From NCBI RefSeq assembly GCF_024707485.1, contig NZ_CP102602.1, forward strand, positions 1,612,001 through 1,676,000: 64,000 nucleotides of DNA. Direction: 5' to 3'. Source of the DNA: Thermococcus thermotolerans (GTDB lineage: Archaea; Methanobacteriota_B; Thermococci; Thermococcales; Thermococcaceae). The notes beneath the pieces are model-generated. The model was not told where the DNA came from and did no database searches. It saw nothing but the letters and a program-made list of their open reading frames with translations. A program made the translations under genes and the position numbers. The stretch's first letter is position 1. Each line of letters starts with the position of its first letter. Shown here piece by piece: positions 46,003-54,051 of the stretch.

Positions 46003-46053
46003 TTCCGTTTTTTGCTAACTATTTTTAGTAGTGTGTTAAATTTGAATAGAAAA
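46003..46053 (+). promoter_or_regulatory. Shared upstream element (copy 1), before the 46.1-kb secreted precursor
   Basis: 51 bp that match 52111-52161 at 42 positions, including an identical TTAGTAGTGTG block. Both copies are followed by GAATAGAAAA and then a TATA-like sequence (TTCTTTTAAACTTC here). In copy 2 the element is an almost perfect 29-bp inverted repeat. It probably binds a common regulator. Confidence 0.65.
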
Positions 46054-46097
46054 TTCTTTTAAACTTCAACAAGTTTTAGTATTTTGGTGACGTTCCC

Positions 46098-48992
46098 ATG
46101 AGAAAGTTAGCAGGATTATGGTTAGTAATACTGATTTTGGGTATGACGGTAAGTGCTGGAATGTCAAACAACTACGCGGCAGCAGTAACGACCAGTGATC
46201 CCTATGAGGCTTTCTGGGATATTCTAAACAGGGAGGCGGAACTTGTAGTTGAAGTTGAAAACGGCAATCTCAGTCTTGCTCCAGAGTTGATTCAAAACTC
46301 CCGCCTCGGTGCTGAGAATGCAGCCAACATTTCAGCCTTAATCTGGCAGGCTTTGGAAGAGTTGAAAGCCTCTGGAGTCAAAACTTATTACACTGCGGAG
46401 GAACTCCGCGAAATGGCTCAGAACATTAGCGAAAACGGTCTGCCACAGGAGACTGTTGATGCTCTTAAGGAGCAGGGCTGGACTGACGAGCAGATTCAGG
46501 CTTTGGAAGAGTACATTGTTCAGAACGGGGCAAACATTACAGAAGACTTTAACATGACGGCCTTCCTTGAAGAATTCTCCATGGCATTCATTAACGTGGC
46601 CTTCAAGTACAATCGTTATGAAGCCTGGGCGCTGGAGAAATGGAAGTGGACTCAGCCCGCTGAAGCTCCAACCTTAAACAATGAAGAACTGATAAACCCT
46701 GTTTTGGCAGATCCATGGGTTCAGTTTTATCATGCGTACGCTGTGAGTGATTACGTGGGAATGGAAGACTCCATTGAAGCCTTAAGAGATTCTGCGTATA
46801 ATTTCTTGACGTATCAGGAGAGATTTGTTAGTTTAACCTTTTTGCGCAATGGGAGTGTAATTACGAAGACTGGAACACTGGATCGTGTTAACTGGACGGA
46901 TAATGGTTCAATGGTGTTTACCACTCTAGTCACCTCTCCGTCGGAGGACGGTTTCATGCTTAACACTACAACCTACTACTGGCCAAGTGCGTTACGGGCT
47001 TATGAGCTGACATCCAACATAATGACTCTCGTAAAGGCCAGGAATTGTGGTAACAACAATTCTGAGGTTCAGTGGATGCTTAATCAGAAAGTTGCAGAGT
47101 TGAGGAGTGCGCTCAAGGTAATTATCGTGAGTACGAGCACTTCAACTGTACAAGTTCCGAATGAGCCAATTTATCCAATAGAGCCAATAGACCCGATCTA
47201 TCCAATAGATCCAAAACTGCCAGTACTGCCTGTTTCGATGACCTCTCCAGAAGAGTCCACTACGGCAGAACTTTCCGAGAGTACAACCGTTATAACCCCT
47301 GCCGATGAGACTGCGCTGTTGGCCCTTGATCCCAACAACGAGGAAGGACGTTTGATGGTCGACAGTGTTAATGTGGAAGCGGTTGAGGTAACCTCGGATT
47401 ACGTCACATACAAGGTTGCAGTCCACCTCCATGTTGAAGACAACGCCGTCTCAAACGTGAATTTAGAGTTTCAAGGAACTGAGTTGAGTGACTCCAAGTC
47501 TATGGGTTTTCTTTATCCAGGTGATAGCTTTGTGGTGGAGAGTACCGTCAGTGGAAGAGTGTATGGAAGTGACCAAGTTACGGTAAGCGGGACTGTTAAG
47601 ATAACTTATACCCCCAGTTCCGGCCAGATACCGAACAGTGTTAGTCCAGCTAATGATGAGCGTGAAATAACCGAGAGTTATTCAAAGACAATACCGTTGG
47701 AGGAAGACATTGATCCTAGCAAGGTTTATGTAAGCGTTTTGGCTCAAGATGAAAATGGTGATGGAGTCATTACTGCAGGGGAAGACGTTGCCTTCAAGGT
47801 TGTCGTGAAGAATGAGAATAATGCTGATGTTTCTGGATCATGTAAGATCGACGTTAAGTACCCTATAAGCAGTAGCGACACGAGCATGAGGAATTTTAGC
47901 GTTAGCATTAATGCTCCCGCTGGTGGGAGTATAACGGGAACCTTTGGCAGTGTTCACTATGCTTGGTCCGGAACCTTCACGTACACTGGAAAATGTACTT
48001 TTGACCAGTATGAGAAAAGCTTTAGTGGTTACGTGACGGTGGAGGAGGATGACTCCACAGACCCCACTGTTGTGAAGATGATTGATGTTGTTCCAACAAG
48101 TTGGCCAAGTACGGCTCGTCTTGGTGGTTCTGTTGAGTTCAGTGTGGATTTGAAGAATACGTATCCAGTAGACAAGTCTGTGAAGGTTGAGTTAAAGATT
48201 GATGGAGTTACTGTTGATGTTGTTGAGACCACAGTGATTGCTGGTCGTTCCACGGGAGTAATCCTTACTTGGAATGTTCCGGACGACTTCCCAGTGGGCG
48301 AGCATACTGTAAAGATAAAAGCCTGGTCAAGAAACATCGGCTTAGATGATCCCTGGAACCCAGAAGACAGCGAAACAGAATCCATCGAGGTCACGGGTGT
48401 TGAAATCTTAAATATCGATTGTCCTCAAAGGGCAGGTCTTGGTGAAACCATTGAATGCAGGATATACATAAGGAACACTCTAGATGAACGAGTCGGCATA
48501 AATACTAAGCAGGTCATTTTAACTGGCCATCCTTACGATGAGTATCTCCATGAGACCAGAACAGTTAGCATTGAATATCCCATCCAGAACTCCATCAACA
48601 TAGATCCAGGTCGTACTGAAGTTTTGTTAGTAGCGCCCATTGATATCCCCGACGATCGGAAAATTCTTGATTATCGCTATACTTGTGATCAGATAACAGG
48701 GGACTGTTCTTTTAAGTGGGCAGACACCAACTACACACTTCAAATCCAAATTGACATGCCGTATCCCCAAAAAGACATAACCATTAATAGGACCCTAACT
48801 CTCTACTACTTTGGCAGCTCAGCAATGCAAGAAATAGCTGGAGGTCTGGTGACCGAATATGGAGTACCCGCCGCTACAGCAGGTCTAACAGGGCTATTAC
48901 TTGCAGCCGCTGGGTTTAGCGCATTTGCTACGTTTGGACTCTCATTAGCTGTTGGAGCAATAGTCTATGTAATACTTAAAGAAACAAGTTAG
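46098..48992 (+). CDS. Large secreted precursor-like protein with hydrophobic C-terminal segment
   Basis: 964 residues. Signal peptide MRKLAGLWLVILILGMTVSA; a helical region of about 200 residues; a Pro/Ile repeat (YPIEPIDPIYPIDPKLPVLP) near 360; Ig-like or CARDB-type units (about 430-830, e.g. EDVAFKVVVKNENNADVSGS and SVEFSVDLKNTYPVDKSVKV); a Cys pair (NIDCPQRAGLGETIECRIYI); and a final 55-residue hydrophobic stretch (GGLVTEYGVPAATAGLTGLL, LLAAAGFSAFATFGLSLAVG). The end could be a membrane anchor or a bacteriocin-like hydrophobic peptide. Codon and base use are AT-richer than neighbouring core genes. The small membrane gene follows 12 bp later. Confidence 0.7.
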   Translation: MRKLAGLWLVILILGMTVSAGMSNNYAAAVTTSDPYEAFWDILNREAELVVEVENGNLSLAPELIQNSRLGAENAANISALIWQALEELKASGVKTYYTAEELREMAQNISENGLPQETVDALKEQGWTDEQIQALEEYIVQNGANITEDFNMTAFLEEFSMAFINVAFKYNRYEAWALEKWKWTQPAEAPTLNNEELINPVLADPWVQFYHAYAVSDYVGMEDSIEALRDSAYNFLTYQERFVSLTFLRNGSVITKTGTLDRVNWTDNGSMVFTTLVTSPSEDGFMLNTTTYYWPSALRAYELTSNIMTLVKARNCGNNNSEVQWMLNQKVAELRSALKVIIVSTSTSTVQVPNEPIYPIEPIDPIYPIDPKLPVLPVSMTSPEESTTAELSESTTVITPADETALLALDPNNEEGRLMVDSVNVEAVEVTSDYVTYKVAVHLHVEDNAVSNVNLEFQGTELSDSKSMGFLYPGDSFVVESTVSGRVYGSDQVTVSGTVKITYTPSSGQIPNSVSPANDEREITESYSKTIPLEEDIDPSKVYVSVLAQDENGDGVITAGEDVAFKVVVKNENNADVSGSCKIDVKYPISSSDTSMRNFSVSINAPAGGSITGTFGSVHYAWSGTFTYTGKCTFDQYEKSFSGYVTVEEDDSTDPTVVKMIDVVPTSWPSTARLGGSVEFSVDLKNTYPVDKSVKVELKIDGVTVDVVETTVIAGRSTGVILTWNVPDDFPVGEHTVKIKAWSRNIGLDDPWNPEDSETESIEVTGVEILNIDCPQRAGLGETIECRIYIRNTLDERVGINTKQVILTGHPYDEYLHETRTVSIEYPIQNSINIDPGRTEVLLVAPIDIPDDRKILDYRYTCDQITGDCSFKWADTNYTLQIQIDMPYPQKDITINRTLTLYYFGSSAMQEIAGGLVTEYGVPAATAGLTGLLLAAAGFSAFATFGLSLAVGAIVYVILKETS

Positions 48993-49004
48993 GGGTGGAT
49001 TGAA

Positions 49005-49301
49005 ATGGATGTTGTTATCCACAGCATTATAGTGATGTTCCCCCACGCTTTCTTATTTTTAATGGTTATAGTAATGTATCTGAGGTTAAAAGAAGGCAGA
49101 ATTCAAGTTGCAAAGAGAATAGCATTACTGGCGCCGATGACATGGTTGTACTGGAGGTGGTTCTTTGGTAACCTGCCATTTTTAAGTGATCCTACAAATT
49201 TCATAGCCTTCATTATATTCACAATGTCTCTAGCAGGATATACCACAGTCGTAATGAGGCTATATCCTGAACCTGCCAATTCCAGAGAGGGCTTAAAATA
49301 A
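49005..49301 (+). CDS. Small membrane protein, partner of 46098-48992
   Basis: 98 residues with about three hydrophobic helices (VVIHSIIVMFPHAFLFLMVI, RIALLAPMTWLYWRWFFGNL, NFIAFIIFTMSLAGYTTVVM). A GGGGTGG site precedes the ATG and the gap to the upstream stop is 12 bp, so the pair is an operon. Same order as 8331-8702 after 8712-9470 and 10503-10886 after 10893-11846. An immunity role is inferred from position only. Confidence 0.55.
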   Translation: MDVVIHSIIVMFPHAFLFLMVIVMYLRLKEGRIQVAKRIALLAPMTWLYWRWFFGNLPFLSDPTNFIAFIIFTMSLAGYTTVVMRLYPEPANSREGLK

Positions 49302-49756
49302 ATCAGCTATTTTTTTATTTTTAATTATCGAAGATACATCGTCCAAGATGGGATTCTGAAAATCTACGCGAGGAAAACAATGAGCGAATGGGCAGACTTC
49401 AGTAAAATATGTCAGGACATCACGTTGTACTTAAAAGTCGGAGGAAAACACTCGCAAACGCAAAAATCAACATTATCCAACCCGGACTGGTGAAGGCGAC
49501 GATGACATGCCCTGCAGTTGTTGGTCTAGGTGGCTCAGCCCAGTGTACTATACATTTCAAGCTGAAAGAGCAAACGGCATTAACGCTTAACTTGGAGAGA
49601 CTTAAATTTGGTGGTAAGATGATATAATCTTAACGATGAAGACGGGGACATCCCATCCAGTAAGGGACATAGCTTAACGTCCGAGGAGTTGGGACCTTGG
49701 CTTTCTTATCCAGCAACCCTTTTTAACTCCTCCCCCAACTTTTTTCGGTGGTGTGG
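49302..49756. other. Region with a gene remnant and the moaD-type gene's promoter
   Basis: 455 bp. Holds the degenerate paralogue described at 49380-49690 and, near the end, a T-rich CCTTTTTAACTCC promoter-like sequence (about 49717-49730) for the downstream operon. No intact gene. Confidence 0.5.
49380..49690 (+). pseudogene. Degraded remnant related to the 46.1-kb secreted protein
   Basis: In one frame (49409-49627) 72 codons read through TMTCPAVVGLGGSAQCTIHF, which lines up by eye with NIDCPQRAGLGETIECRIYI of the upstream 964-residue protein (Cys, GLG, Cys at matching spacing). The frame has no convincing start; a second short frame from 49380 (MSEWADFSKICQDITLYLKV) overlaps it in another phase. 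This looks like the eroded end of a second such gene rather than a functional protein. Confidence 0.4.
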
Positions 49757-50023
49757 ATGAGGATTAGGGTTCGCTATTTCGCCAGGTTCCGCTCCCTGGT
49801 TGGCACCGGTGAGGAGGAACTCGAAGTTCCCGAGGGGACGACCATCGGCGGGCTGATAGAAATCCTGAAGGAGAGGCATCCCGTTCTCAAAAACGAGGTC
49901 TTCGCCGAGGACGACGACCTAGCTGATGTCAATGTCTCCAGGAACGGCAGTTACGTGGGTTTCGATGAGGTTCTTGAGGATGGTGATGTGGTTGCGCTGT
50001 TTCCCCCTGTGAGCGGTGGTTGA
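49757..50023 (+). CDS. MoaD-like / ubiquitin-like small modifier protein
   Basis: 88 residues, beta-grasp fold: MRIRVRYFARFRSLVGTGEE, ...LEDGDVVALFPPVSGG. It ends in Gly-Gly, needed for adenylation and thiocarboxylate formation or isopeptide transfer. Partner for the MoaE gene (51680-52108) in molybdopterin synthase, or an archaeal SAMP modifier. ATG 49757 is preferred (M4 of the longer frame), with GGTGGTGTGG upstream. It is 1 bp from the E1-like gene, consistent with a single operon and functional pair. Confidence 0.85.
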   Translation: MRIRVRYFARFRSLVGTGEEELEVPEGTTIGGLIEILKERHPVLKNEVFAEDDDLADVNVSRNGSYVGFDEVLEDGDVVALFPPVSGG

Positions 50024-50024
50024 T

Positions 50025-50723
50025 ATGCTCACGAAAAGGGAGCTTGAGCGCTACGACAGGCAGATAATGATCTTCGGTGAAGAGGGTCAGGAGAAGCTTA
50101 AGGCCTCAAAGGTCGCGGTCGTTGGAGTCGGTGGCCTCGGGAGTCCGGTCGCCTACTACCTTGCCGCCGCTGGCGTTGGTACCCTCCTCCTTGTAGACGA
50201 GCAAAAGCCGGAGCTGAGCAACCTCAACAGACAGATACTCCACTGGGAGGAGGATTTGAATGAGAATCCTAAACCGCTCTCTGCCAAATGGAAGCTTGAG
50301 CACTTCAACTCAAATATAAAAATCGAAACGTTTGTAGGTAAACTGGACGAGGGCAACATCGATAGTGTTCTCAAAGGGGCTGACGTCATCGTTGACTGCC
50401 TCGACAACTTCGGGACAAGGTTTCTCCTCGATGACTACGCGGGAAAGGCAGAGGTTCCCCTCATTCACGGAGCCGTTGAGGGAACCTACGGGCAGGTGAC
50501 GACCATAATTCCTGGAAAGACCAAGAGCCTGCGCGAGATATTTCCGAACGTGAGGGAAAATAGGGGAAAGTTCCCGATACTCGGGGCAACAGCTGGGGTT
50601 ATTGGCACCATTCAGGCGATGGAGGTAATAAAACTGCTCACCGGGATCGGTGAGCCCCTCCTCAACAGACTGCTCATAGTTGACCTTGCCTTCAACACCT
50701 TTGATGTTATTGAGCTCAGGTAG
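50025..50723 (+). CDS. E1-like adenylyltransferase (MoeB/ThiF/UbaA family) without zinc cysteines
   Basis: 232 residues. GVGGLGSPVAYYLAAAGVGT nucleotide loop, DEQKPELSNLNRQILHWEED, and DCLDNFGTRFLLDDYAG are intact, as is LGATAGVIGTIQAMEVIKLL. But the usual CxxC zinc pairs and the catalytic Cys of MoeB/ThiF are missing: the only Cys is in DCLDN, and the segment that normally has Cys reads SLREIFPNVRENRGKFP. It should still adenylate the MoaD-like C-terminal Gly, giving the acyl-adenylate for sulfur transfer. It ends 8 bp inside the convergent lipoprotein gene. Confidence 0.85.
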   Translation: MLTKRELERYDRQIMIFGEEGQEKLKASKVAVVGVGGLGSPVAYYLAAAGVGTLLLVDEQKPELSNLNRQILHWEEDLNENPKPLSAKWKLEHFNSNIKIETFVGKLDEGNIDSVLKGADVIVDCLDNFGTRFLLDDYAGKAEVPLIHGAVEGTYGQVTTIIPGKTKSLREIFPNVRENRGKFPILGATAGVIGTIQAMEVIKLLTGIGEPLLNRLLIVDLAFNTFDVIELR

Positions 50724-51579
50724 ATGGTGCTTCCACGTTTTTCTTCTCGTTTATGGATGTTATCCGTATGGTCTCGCTCCACGAGCCGTCCTGGGTTATC
50801 GTCATCTTCCCGATGGTGGGGTCGTCTATTGATGTCTTCGCACTCACTGAAAAGCTTACCCTTCCCCCTACGAGCCTGCCGTTCTCGAAGTACAGCTCAA
50901 GGACGCCGTCCTTCACGCTGATCTCCGTGTCGGGAGTTGTGGCGAAGTACATGGTTGCCAGGGGCCTCACCTCGTAGTCGCTGAGGTGGTACCTGAGCAC
51001 GAGCCTCTCGCCGTTCTCCCTTTCGTCTGGGGTTCTTTTCAGGTATTCCTTGGCGAGGCTTACGATGTTGTATTTCCAGACGAATTCCGCGGTGGTTGGG
51101 TCGTCGCTCTTCACCCATCCGAGGGGAGTGCGGATGTAGGTGACGTTGTTAAAGACGATCCTTGATGTGTTGGTGGAGGCACCGTCCGGGACGCTGATGG
51201 TGGTCGTGTTTATGACCGCGCTCCAGGATTCAAAGTCCATGTAGCCCCTTTCGATTATATTCAGTGTGACGTTGTCCCTCTGGGAGACGTTTCCCTGCGT
51301 TACCACTACCAGCATTGAGATCGTGGCGTTGCTGACGTATGTGTACTGGTTCAGGGCCGAGACCCACTGAAGGAGCTCGTCCGTGGTGACCTCCTTTGGG
51401 GTTTCCGTTGGGGACTGGCTGGTGGTTGTTGGAGACTGGCTAGTGGTTGTCGGGGTTGTAGTGCCGGGGCTGGAAGAGACCGCGGGGCTCGACGTCGTGG
51501 TATCGCTGCCGCCTCCAAGACAGCCAGCGGTGAATCCGATGACCAGAACCAGAATGAGAACGAGGGCATATTTTTTCAT
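50716..51579 (-). CDS. Lipoprotein with LolA-like domain
   Basis: 287 residues. Lipobox signal MKKYALVLILVLVIGFTAGC with Cys20 followed by a Gly/Ser/Thr-rich stretch (TTTSSPAVSSSPGTTTPTTT repeated SPTTTSQ units), then a beta-rich domain (ELLQWVSALNQYTYVSNATI, ERENGERLVLRYHLSD-type strands, FSVSAKTSIDDPTIGKMTIT). Thermococcales have many such proteins with LolA/DUF-type folds on the cell surface. Extracellular, lipid-anchored. It is the only minus-strand gene between the MoaD and MoaE genes. Function unknown. Confidence 0.75.
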   Translation of the reverse strand: MKKYALVLILVLVIGFTAGCLGGGSDTTTSSPAVSSSPGTTTPTTTSQSPTTTSQSPTETPKEVTTDELLQWVSALNQYTYVSNATISMLVVVTQGNVSQRDNVTLNIIERGYMDFESWSAVINTTTISVPDGASTNTSRIVFNNVTYIRTPLGWVKSDDPTTAEFVWKYNIVSLAKEYLKRTPDERENGERLVLRYHLSDYEVRPLATMYFATTPDTEISVKDGVLELYFENGRLVGGRVSFSVSAKTSIDDPTIGKMTITQDGSWSETIRITSINEKKNVEAPST

Positions 51580-51679
51580 GCCTTTCACCCAGGAACCCTC
51601 GGCTGGAGACCACTTAAACCTTTTCGTTAACCCGGCAGGTTTTAATCTGGTTGTGTGTAGTCTTTAGGGGGGATGAGAG

Positions 51680-52108
51680 ATGAAGGTCAGGCTTACGAAA
51701 GAACCCTTTGACCTCAACGAGGCTTTGGGCTACCTCCTGGTTCCGGAGGCTGGTGGCTATGTGTTCTTCCTTGGCAAGGTCAGAAACGAGAACCACGGGA
51801 GGAGGGTAGAGAAGCTCATCTACGAGGCCTATCCTGAGATGGCCGAGGCTGAGATGGCCCGTATACGAAAAGAGGCCCTTGAGAGGTTCCCCATTCTGGA
51901 CATGCTTATCTGGCACCGCTACGGAGAGCTTGAAGTCGGTCAGGACACGATACTCATTATCGCCAGTGGCAGGCACAGGAAGGAGGCCTTTGAGGCCTGC
52001 ATGTGGGCAATTGATGAGGTGAAGCGCCGCGTCCCGGTGTGGAAGAGGGAGGTGACGGATGAGGGCACCTTCTGGATCGAGGGCGACCGGCTGGTTCCTG
52101 AGAAGTGA
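51680..52108 (+). CDS. moaE: Molybdopterin synthase catalytic subunit MoaE
   Basis: 142 residues. GYVFFLGKVRNENHGRRVEK (the LG.VR segment), LIYEAYPEMAEAEMARIRKE, IWHRYGELEVGQDTILIIAS, and the C-terminal RVPVWKREVTDEGTFWIEGD with the catalytic Lys are typical. Makes molybdopterin with MoaD-thiocarboxylate, needed for tungsten or molybdenum enzymes. Its MoaD-like partner and E1-like enzyme lie just upstream at 49757-50723. GGGGGGATGAG precedes the ATG. Confidence 0.93.
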   Translation: MKVRLTKEPFDLNEALGYLLVPEAGGYVFFLGKVRNENHGRRVEKLIYEAYPEMAEAEMARIRKEALERFPILDMLIWHRYGELEVGQDTILIIASGRHRKEAFEACMWAIDEVKRRVPVWKREVTDEGTFWIEGDRLVPEK

Positions 52109-52110
52109 TT

Positions 52111-52161
52111 TTCCATTTTTTGCAGACTACTCTTAGTAGTGTGCAAAATCGGAATAGAAAA
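52111..52161 (+). promoter_or_regulatory. Shared upstream element (copy 2), before the SPASM-domain gene
   Basis: Matches 46003-46053 at 42 of 51 positions. Within it 52119-52147 is a 29-bp inverted repeat, arms TTTGCAGACTACT and AGTAGTGTGCAAA with one mismatch and a 3-nt centre, followed by GAATAGAAAA and a strong TATA box (TATATATAC, about 52163-52172). Likely regulator binding site. Confidence 0.7.
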
Positions 52162-52204
52162 AGTATATATACAATTCTGTCCCTCTCCTCTATGGTGAGG
52201 ATTA

Positions 52205-53137
52205 ATGGAGAGGGTAGCCTACGATGCATCTCATACCGTTGATGTGGGGATGGCCCTCAATATAGTCTCCATAGGAAAGCCTCCTTGGAGCAACAGCTCC
52301 CACAATGGCAGGCTTGAGCGTCTCATCGTGCAACTTGGTGCAGGAAACGGTAAATTCTCCGAGATTAACGGCATACCGCGCTCAATAGGGTGTATAGGGA
52401 ACAGCTCCTTCATTCTTCGGAGGGAACCTCTCAGTCCCGAAAGGGTGAAGGAGCTTATCCGGGAGTTCAAGGAGATAGGCGGAAAGGAACTCTGGCTCAC
52501 CAACTACGACAGGGTGGAATACCTTACCAGCGTTGCCACATACGCCTCTGAAATAGGCGTTCCGGAGGTCTATGCAGTCGTCAGGCTTGAGGATGTGGAA
52601 TCAGTCGAACCCGTCGATGGGGTCCGCTTCATCGCCGAGCTTGAATACTCACCGAAAAACGTTCAGAGGCTTGAGGCCCACAGCTGGCTCTACGGAGCGC
52701 TCATAATGGTGCGGGGTTCACAGCTGGATGAGCTTATGGGCCTCAAGACCACCTTCCCCGGGGAGGTCTACGTCGACGTTCTCTTCCCCGGCTCCGCTAG
52801 AAAGCTGGACTTCAACGTTATAGAGGTCAAGAGGATACTGAATCCAACCGTTGAAAGATACCACGACTGCTTGGCCGGTACGATGGCCGTAACGGCTGAC
52901 GGCTATGCGCTTCCGTGTCCGCTCCTCAGGAACTACGTTGTCGGGGATCTGAAGGAGCTGGGGATAAAGAAGGTTCTCAGAAAGAGGAGAATCAAGGCCT
53001 TCTGGAGGATGACAAAGGATGATATAGGGGCCTGCAGTGACTGTCCGTTCAGGTATATCTGCCACGACTGCAGGGCGCTAGAGTATCAGGCTACCGGTGA
53101 GATAGACGGCCTGGAATACTGCCAGATAGTATTTTAG
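52205..53137 (+). CDS. SPASM-domain Fe-S protein with a degenerate radical-SAM domain
   Basis: 310 residues. The C-terminus is a clear SPASM-type Fe-S domain: DCLAGTMAVTADGYALPCPL and GACSDCPFRYICHDCRALEY with the expected Cys ladder. The N-terminal part looks like a TIM-barrel (ERVKELIREFKEIGGKELWL, EIGVPEVYAVVRLEDVESVE), but where the radical SAM CxxxCxxC should be it reads IGCIGNSSFI, a single Cys63, so no SAM cluster can form. It may be a scaffold or peptide-binding relative of radical SAM peptide modifiers. Its promoter element is shared with the secreted precursor at 46.1 kb. A double-HTH regulator gene is convergent with 4 bp overlap. Confidence 0.75.
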   Translation: MERVAYDASHTVDVGMALNIVSIGKPPWSNSSHNGRLERLIVQLGAGNGKFSEINGIPRSIGCIGNSSFILRREPLSPERVKELIREFKEIGGKELWLTNYDRVEYLTSVATYASEIGVPEVYAVVRLEDVESVEPVDGVRFIAELEYSPKNVQRLEAHSWLYGALIMVRGSQLDELMGLKTTFPGEVYVDVLFPGSARKLDFNVIEVKRILNPTVERYHDCLAGTMAVTADGYALPCPLLRNYVVGDLKELGIKKVLRKRRIKAFWRMTKDDIGACSDCPFRYICHDCRALEYQATGEIDGLEYCQIVF

Positions 53138-54051
53138 AAGTCCAGTATGGATCGGTACCCGCTCCCGTCTTTTTTTATCCTTCGTGAGTACCTGGTCATT
53201 CCGTTCTTGTCGTTGAGTTCTTTGAATGTGGGATCAAAGTACTCTATGAGTAGCTTTTCCACGTAGTTGCTGAACTCCAGTATCTTTGTTCCCAGATCCT
53301 CTTTTGACGAGAAGAACCATTCTATGACGTATCCTCTTCCAGGGAGCACCCCAACGACGATCTCGTATTCCTTGAATCTCTCTAGGACTGATTCATCGAG
53401 GGTTTCCGTTATTCCAAGAACACTCCTGTCGTGGATATTGTTTTCCAAAGCGGGGTCGAATCCCACCAGGATTCCCATACTCTTAAGTCTGTTTATCATG
53501 AATTTTACTGTGGGGCGGGTCTTTCCGAGCCTCTGTGCTATCTTGGTTATCGGGGTTCTCGCGTCTATATTCAAGATGTCCATCAGCACAGCGTAATCGT
53601 AGCTCAGGTTCCATTCCCCGAAGTTGTCGTCCCCGCTGTATGGATACGCCCTGACCTCATAGTATTCATAGTCGTCGGAGTATTTTGATAGCATCTCGTC
53701 TATCCTGTCCTTCTGGTCGTCTGGAATGTGGAGTACTGCCGATAGTCCATTCTTGAATCCGAATGCAGGATTGACATAGGCCACAAAAGGATTCTGGGCC
53801 ATTCTATAACCCGTCTCAAGTATGCTGTCTGAAGGAACGCTCAGAAACGCCAGATAACTCCTGAGGCCTATTATCCTAATATTATAAACGGCACTGACGG
53901 AGATGTATTTTCCGTAGTACTTGTCGTACAGCCTCTTGAGACGATAGTAGTCTATCCCCTCCTCCTCGGCTATTTTTTTCAGGCTATCCGTGGGATGTCT
54001 CACCAAAATCTCCACGAGAAATTCGAGCTCCTCCATGACAGGCTCGCCCAT
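53134..54051 (-). CDS. Transcriptional regulator with two Lrp/AsnC-type helix-turn-helix domains
   Basis: 305 residues. N-terminal HTH (HPTDSLKKIAEEEGIDYYRL) plus ligand-like region, then a second HTH near 165-210 (NIDARTPITKIAQRLGKTRP, TVKFMINRLKSMGILVGFDP) and a C-terminal domain. This is the duplicated-HTH Lrp-like family frequent in Thermococcales. ATG 54051 has GGTGAGGTG upstream. Its 3' end overlaps the SPASM gene end by 4 bp. It may control the element at 52111-52161, but nothing in the sequence proves that. Confidence 0.75.
   Translation of the reverse strand: MGEPVMEELEFLVEILVRHPTDSLKKIAEEEGIDYYRLKRLYDKYYGKYISVSAVYNIRIIGLRSYLAFLSVPSDSILETGYRMAQNPFVAYVNPAFGFKNGLSAVLHIPDDQKDRIDEMLSKYSDDYEYYEVRAYPYSGDDNFGEWNLSYDYAVLMDILNIDARTPITKIAQRLGKTRPTVKFMINRLKSMGILVGFDPALENNIHDRSVLGITETLDESVLERFKEYEIVVGVLPGRGYVIEWFFSSKEDLGTKILEFSNYVEKLLIEYFDPTFKELNDKNGMTRYSRRIKKDGSGYRSILDF

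Follow-up and report, generated by a model that had tools for sequence, protein, structure and literature searches.

What could lead two dissimilar genes of Thermococcus thermotolerans, one encoding a secreted protein of 964 amino acids (aa) and the other a SPASM-domain protein, to carry nearly the same promoter? Both genes lie in a stretch of 64,000 nucleotides (the window, positions 1,612,001-1,676,000 of the 2.07-Mb genome). An original prediction had pointed out a 51-bp element upstream of both, had suggested that the two genes form one regulon under a presumed regulator encoded at 53134-54051 (here called REG), and had considered a maturation link between the secreted peptide and the iron-sulfur (Fe-S) protein. 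On the basis of sequence comparison across the family, we consider that the shared element probably unites operator and core promoter in a small, dedicated Thermococcaceae regulon, with REG as the candidate regulator. This regulon looks previously undescribed: no description of the regulation was found in the freely readable literature, subscription literature and RegPrecise being outside the search.

A conserved element at a fixed distance from the core promoter

The two copies, at 46003-46053 and 52111-52161, are identical at 42 of 51 positions, as had been claimed, and the identical blocks before the TATA box include TTAGTAGTGTG and GAATAGAAAA. When the first copy was scanned over both strands of the window, the best match was the one of 42 positions at 52111 and the next reached at most 29/51; ACTACTNTTAGTAGTGTG, allowed up to three mismatches, was matched three times against 0.08 expected, one of the three being the palindrome's own reverse strand. 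The likeness runs on into the transcription factor B (TFB) recognition element (BRE) and the TATA box and ends near 46064 and 52172, so that each unit, on the forward strand, measures about 62 bp. In copy 1 (46003-46064) the palindrome region occupies 46010-46040 and the BRE/TATA about 46049-46063; in copy 2 (52111-52172) the palindrome occupies 52118-52148 and the BRE/TATA about 52157-52171. The 31-bp palindrome consensus, TTTTGCWWACTAYTnnnARTAGTdTGCAAAA, is followed at fixed spacing by TCTGAATAGAAAAA (the BRE) and the TATA box, the centre of the palindrome being about 35 bp upstream of that of the TATA box. The inverted repeat described for copy 2 is indeed present, although it is 31 bp and not 29 bp long and consists of 14-bp arms around CTT with 13 of 14 positions paired; in 600 Markov resamples of the region the count never rose above 12 pairs. 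Taken by itself, copy 1 is poorly palindromic, pairing at 9 of 14 arm positions by a count made by eye. The genes downstream are as described, the 964-aa secreted protein starting at 46098 and the SPASM protein at 52205.

Searches of whole genomes were made with two profiles, one (R1) built from sequence only, from the four copies in the T. thermotolerans genome, and a broader one (R2) built from 55 non-redundant sites of family relatives; the E-values of both are rough, and R1 provides the independent test because R2 was trained on the same relatives. In the genome, R1 found exactly four sites at E of 1e-17 or better (9.5e-18 for copy 1 and 7.0e-19 for copy 2, the best site in the genome), and the only other match below 0.1 was the reverse strand of the palindrome. 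R2 recovered the same four at E ≤ 1.9e-15 (the value of copy 1) together with their reverse strands, the next best match having an E of 0.25, so that a full-genome search yields four copies and nothing else above noise. These four precede the SPASM gene, the 964-aa gene, its paralogue at 1,537,485 (L002) and a lipoprotein gene near 969,000 (L003). Among relatives, R1 matched in 59 of 61 congeneric genomes, with one to six sites each, and R2 in 88 of 94 genomes of the Thermococcaceae. In the genus, 30 SPASM promoters were inspected, and each has TTTTCCATTTTTTGC..ACTA..AGTRGT..GCAAAATCGGAATAGAAAAAGTATATATA or a sequence close to it; in the other genera of the family, SPASM promoters have recognisable versions 80-96 bp before the start of the match, one of them weak (L133). 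Rather than being scattered over the genome without connection to secreted genes, the element recurs before the same few gene families across the family, which supports the proposal of one regulon.

Might the similarity instead be fortuitous, or mark where transcription of the preceding genes terminates? An oligo-T run in the element, and its frequent start a few base pairs after an upstream stop codon, would be expected of a terminator. However, 11 of 52 sites have a divergent gene upstream, so the element is not simply a terminator, and its spacing to the BRE/TATA is constant. Chance is opposed by the 42/51 match, when no other place in the window exceeds 29, by E-values of about 1e-15 or better in the T. 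thermotolerans genome, and by the mismatch scans and Markov resampling given above. We therefore rejected both origins, which seem to us scarcely credible. An RNA hairpin was likewise ruled out. The 55 non-redundant sites align with no gap through the palindrome, linker, BRE and TATA box, and across them 82% of positions in profile columns 8-38 pair in two-fold symmetry, against at most 49% when the axis is slid by one to three columns; nevertheless, covariation between the arms did not exceed that of shuffled alignments of these sites. Symmetry without covariation argues for a symmetric DNA site of fixed consensus, such as a dimer would occupy, and not for a hairpin kept by compensation. In addition, because the element stands upstream of the BRE/TATA, it would not be transcribed from its own promoter.

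REG as the candidate regulator

REG (53134-54051, reverse strand, convergent with the SPASM gene) is a protein of 305 aa comprising two fused halves of the Lrp type, each with a winged helix-turn-helix (wHTH) and a RAM domain. By sequence it matches HTH_24 (E=3.8e-06), and its nearest relative is LrpA of P. furiosus (1i1g, E=5.9e-09); the predicted structure, of high confidence (predicted local distance difference test score, pLDDT, 91.5), shows both wHTH-RAM halves in one chain. The original guess that this gene encodes the regulator finds good support, REG being the best candidate on phyletic grounds. REG occurs in 86 of the 94 family genomes, including 51/51 of those with VARTIG, the surface-protein family to which the 964-aa protein appears to belong (see below), and the element precedes the SPASM gene in every REG-intact genome inspected. 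Among the 74 complete genomes, REG is missing from four (G073, G075, G079 and G084, all of genus g4) and split in G078. No site was found in G075 and G079, G084 has only one with E=0.0056, and in G078 a single weak site lies next to the split REG gene; at SPASM, the promoter has no element in G073, G075 or G078. In G074, which has two SPASM copies, the REG-linked copy has the element and the moaE-linked copy does not. In genomes of g3, a Pyrococcus-like genus, REG is located elsewhere in the genome and the SPASM element is kept, as would be expected for a factor acting in trans.

We consider REG quite likely to be the protein that binds the palindrome, which it would do through its two wHTH domains. 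By analogy with Ptr2, LysM and Ss-LrpB, it may exert its effect from a site adjoining the BRE whose position is constrained, and activation appears somewhat better favoured than repression. In the known archaeal Lrp activators, which share the wHTH and RAM fold, the dimer site lies a few base pairs upstream of the BRE at a constrained position (PMC2995911), as the palindrome does here. In contrast to them, REG joins two Lrp units in one chain, and its candidate site, of 31 bp, is long and strongly conserved; Lrp sites in nature tend to be degenerate and to occur in clusters (PMC2995911). A further parallel is the regulon of TFB-RF1 (PF1088) in Pyrococcus, a small regulon of the Thermococcales in which a palindrome lies at a conserved distance upstream of the BRE/TATA and TFB-RF1 is the activator (PMC5937170). 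It differs in its motif (TCTGAANTTCAGA), in its TrmB-type regulator and in compensating for a weak BRE, whereas the BRE of the present element looks strong.

This last difference is the first of several points that weigh against REG as the activator of the whole set. Promoters with so strong-looking a BRE/TATA have no evident need of an activator, and repression could result if a protein covered the linker. Were REG a repressor, its occupancy would spread over the conserved TCTGAATA linker and block TFB, so that VARTIG and SPASM would stay silent in the absence of a signal; the near-consensus BRE and TATA box and the high conservation of the linker beside the BRE are in keeping with this. The location of the palindrome upstream of the BRE, however, is that of the archaeal Lrp activators (PMC2995911) and of TFB-RF1 (PMC5937170), and we regard repression as a minority possibility. 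Other points touch the link between REG and the element itself. Two sites separated by 1.4 kb persist in G073, which has no REG, in the vicinity of a DUF4855-like gene and of a gene for a secreted product; the REG-less complete genomes are not independent events, because all belong to one genus; the phyletic comparison was confined, among regulators, to REG; no element precedes REG itself in T. thermotolerans; and 16 of 50 VARTIG starts are without the element. The whole-chain fold closest to REG is, moreover, that of an enzyme, the siroheme decarboxylase NirDL (4czc, Z 17.1, 268 residues aligned, root-mean-square deviation 3.8), the next-best folds being Lrp regulators at Z of about 8.

Could the operator then be real and belong to another regulator of the Thermococcaceae, with REG a mere neighbour and perhaps an enzyme related to NirDL? 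The fold, the tandem HTH-RAM chain architecture common to REG and NirDL (4ch7, 4czc; Z 17) and the two sites of G073 speak for this. Siroheme decarboxylases of the NirDL/AhbAB type have a conserved catalytic or haem-binding histidine. The alignment of REG, however, contains no invariantly histidine column, only two that are mostly histidine (19 and 212, their place relative to the NirDL active site not being mapped), its identity to NirDL is 15%, and its neighbours are not haem genes. By sequence REG is nearest to the DNA-binding LrpA, and both of its recognition helices are strongly conserved (YYRLKRLYDKYYGK; GKTRPTVRYMINRL); together with the absence of an invariant histidine, this favours DNA binding without proving it. 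Because loss of the element at SPASM also follows loss of REG in one genus, we judge another regulator to be unlikely, somewhat more so than repression by REG.

Target genes and the SPASM protein

Which genes would REG control? Proposed for the set are SPASM, the Fe-S protein encoded beside it; the VARTIG surface proteins, which are hypervariable; a lipoprotein that resembles LolA; and a small number of further proteins, most of them exported. Apart from those at SPASM, 75 distinct sites were considered, and the genes that they precede were classed by tBLASTn: they encode the VARTIG large protein (31; L112 was counted here, since its locus holds a VARTIG site besides the SPASM site), the lipoprotein (24), DUF4855-like proteins (5), solute-binding proteins (SBP) of family 5 (4; secreted, 955-1048 aa), VapB-like proteins (4) and others (7). 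The VARTIG, lipoprotein and SBP counts show that 59 of the 75 sites precede families of exported proteins. Viewed from the genes, 34 of 50 VARTIG starts have the element (25/30 in one set, counting one weak site, and 9/20 in another), and those without it are mostly from genus g3, G061 and one Thermococcus group. Four VARTIG genes of that group (L279, L280, L282 and L283) have no element; what they share upstream is a different sequence, around (C)GAGTAATCAAAATT and then GAAAACTTTTTTAG, which may be an operator that has diverged. Weaker sites stand before the genes of 72-75 aa that resemble VapB antitoxins (L106, L109, L121 and L130; PF02697, E=0.011, below the cutoff).

The SPASM protein itself (52205-53137, forward strand, 310 aa) matches PF13186 above the cutoff (E=7.6e-08). 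Among 21 aligned orthologues, seven cysteines are invariant (222, 238, 277, 280, 286, 289 and 306), the radical-SAM CxxxCxxC occurs in none, and the N-terminal half conserves only Cys63. The gene usually follows moaE, and moaE is its upstream neighbour in most genera according to tBLASTn neighbourhoods; in the window, moaE (51680-52108, forward strand, its identity read from the sequence) ends immediately before the element of copy 2. The structure model is weak (pLDDT 67), and Foldseek linked it to radical-SAM folds only marginally (E about 1e-3), so the protein is possibly radical-SAM derived; a search of its profile against PDB sequences gave no match. In three g3 genomes (G067, G071 and G072) the orthologue has one in-frame stop and the SPASM site is still matched.

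If the SPASM protein were the maturase of a VARTIG precursor, co-expression of the two would be readily explained, and this was the maturation link of the original prediction. Besides the common promoter, its SPASM region resembles that of the peptide-maturase family TIGR04193 (grasp-with-spasm), which also has a SPASM domain without a radical-SAM signature, and the fold matches of the weak model include SuiB, an enzyme of ribosomally synthesized and post-translationally modified peptides (RiPPs). However, only the SPASM region matches TIGR04193, at 62 bits, far below the cutoff of 175, and no ATP-grasp partner was seen beside the SPASM gene. The SPASM protein is present in 94/94 family genomes (as a partial match only in a few incomplete ones), whereas homologues of the VARTIG N-terminus occur in 51, leaving 43 genomes with SPASM and without that N-terminus; its usual neighbour is moaE, which is kept beside it in the REG-less genomes; and the 964-aa target is not a typical RiPP precursor. 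Since SPASM is universal, VARTIG is restricted to 51 genomes and CxxxCxxC is absent, a dedicated maturase is unlikely, and we give this role very little credence. A role as a sensor, or one related to a cofactor, appears more plausible.

VARTIG loci and the meaning of the probable regulon

The 964-aa protein (46098-48992, forward strand) has a signal-like hydrophobic N-terminus, a GN motif at residue 318 and a C-terminal membrane segment, and by these features it fits a VARTIG surface protein with immunoglobulin (Ig) domains (arCOG07710 type; Makarova et al. 2021, PMC8416519). Like the VARTIG proteins of that study, it and the 31 VARTIG targets are secreted, have 950-1140 aa and stand first in an operon; they have paired cysteines, a GN motif that precedes the presumed Ig region, and a variable hydrophobic C-terminus. 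The small membrane gene expected downstream in a VARTIG operon is present, encoding 98 aa with hydrophobic segments (49005-49301, forward strand). The C-terminal tails vary among homologues, and some relatives end in DNNxxxGG; cases of D[ND]NxxxG[GD] are DNNNVVGG (L089), DNNLICGG (L108) and DNNQIIGD (L100), and the 964-aa protein itself is without this motif. Its C-terminal half gave no Pfam match above the cutoff for Ig/CARDB-like domains, only sub-threshold Ig-type ones (Transglut_C, E=0.13; ASH, E=0.15); the VARTIG study used HHpred (PMC8416519). That study names no promoters, palindromes, SPASM, operator or REG-like regulator, and relative to it the shared regulation is new.

Several further observations concern these loci. 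The C-termini (last 90 aa) of VARTIG relatives L086, L123 and L124 resemble glycine-zipper membrane segments, PF13488 being above the cutoff for L124, and the tail of L123 has a sub-threshold likeness to class IIc bacteriocins (E=0.0015). Such tails are candidates for membrane-active effectors, judging from their sequences; the VARTIG study found no toxin domain (PMC8416519). We discarded a reading of the 964-aa C-terminus as a circular bacteriocin, prompted by a supposed likeness to enterocin AS-48, as no Pfam match was obtained. VARTIG frames truncated or frameshifted to 76-196 aa (L077 in G036, L074 in G059, L112 in G017 and L102 in G027) lie behind intact or nearly intact elements, which is consistent with frequent inactivation. 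Downstream of the VARTIG operon, 49437-49627 of the window may be what is left of a gene with Ig domains, since CPAVVGLGGSAQCTIHF there resembles the 964-aa protein at residues 773-792 (E=0.001); this would then suggest decay or rearrangement of the island. At L243, L245 and L253-L257 the VARTIG-locus element begins 2-3 bp after the stop codon of a gene for about 270-290 aa, a place where VARTIG islands may insert preferentially.

What might such a regulon mean for these archaea? VARTIG is an enigmatic hypervariable system with a proposed role in conflict or in self/non-self recognition, and the literature searched held nothing on its control. We speculate, quite tentatively, that the fused Lrp-type regulator and its SPASM Fe-S protein form a dedicated switch that times the VARTIG surface arsenal, the SPASM protein being part of the sensing, of redox state or of a metabolite, and not of peptide modification. 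A tandem-fused Lrp protein of NirDL architecture acting as a regulator would be unusual, if true, and the regulon could give a function to the SPASM protein found in every genome of the family that was searched. Above all, the conserved operator with its single candidate regulator offers a handle on the system: changing one gene should switch the whole set and show when it is used.

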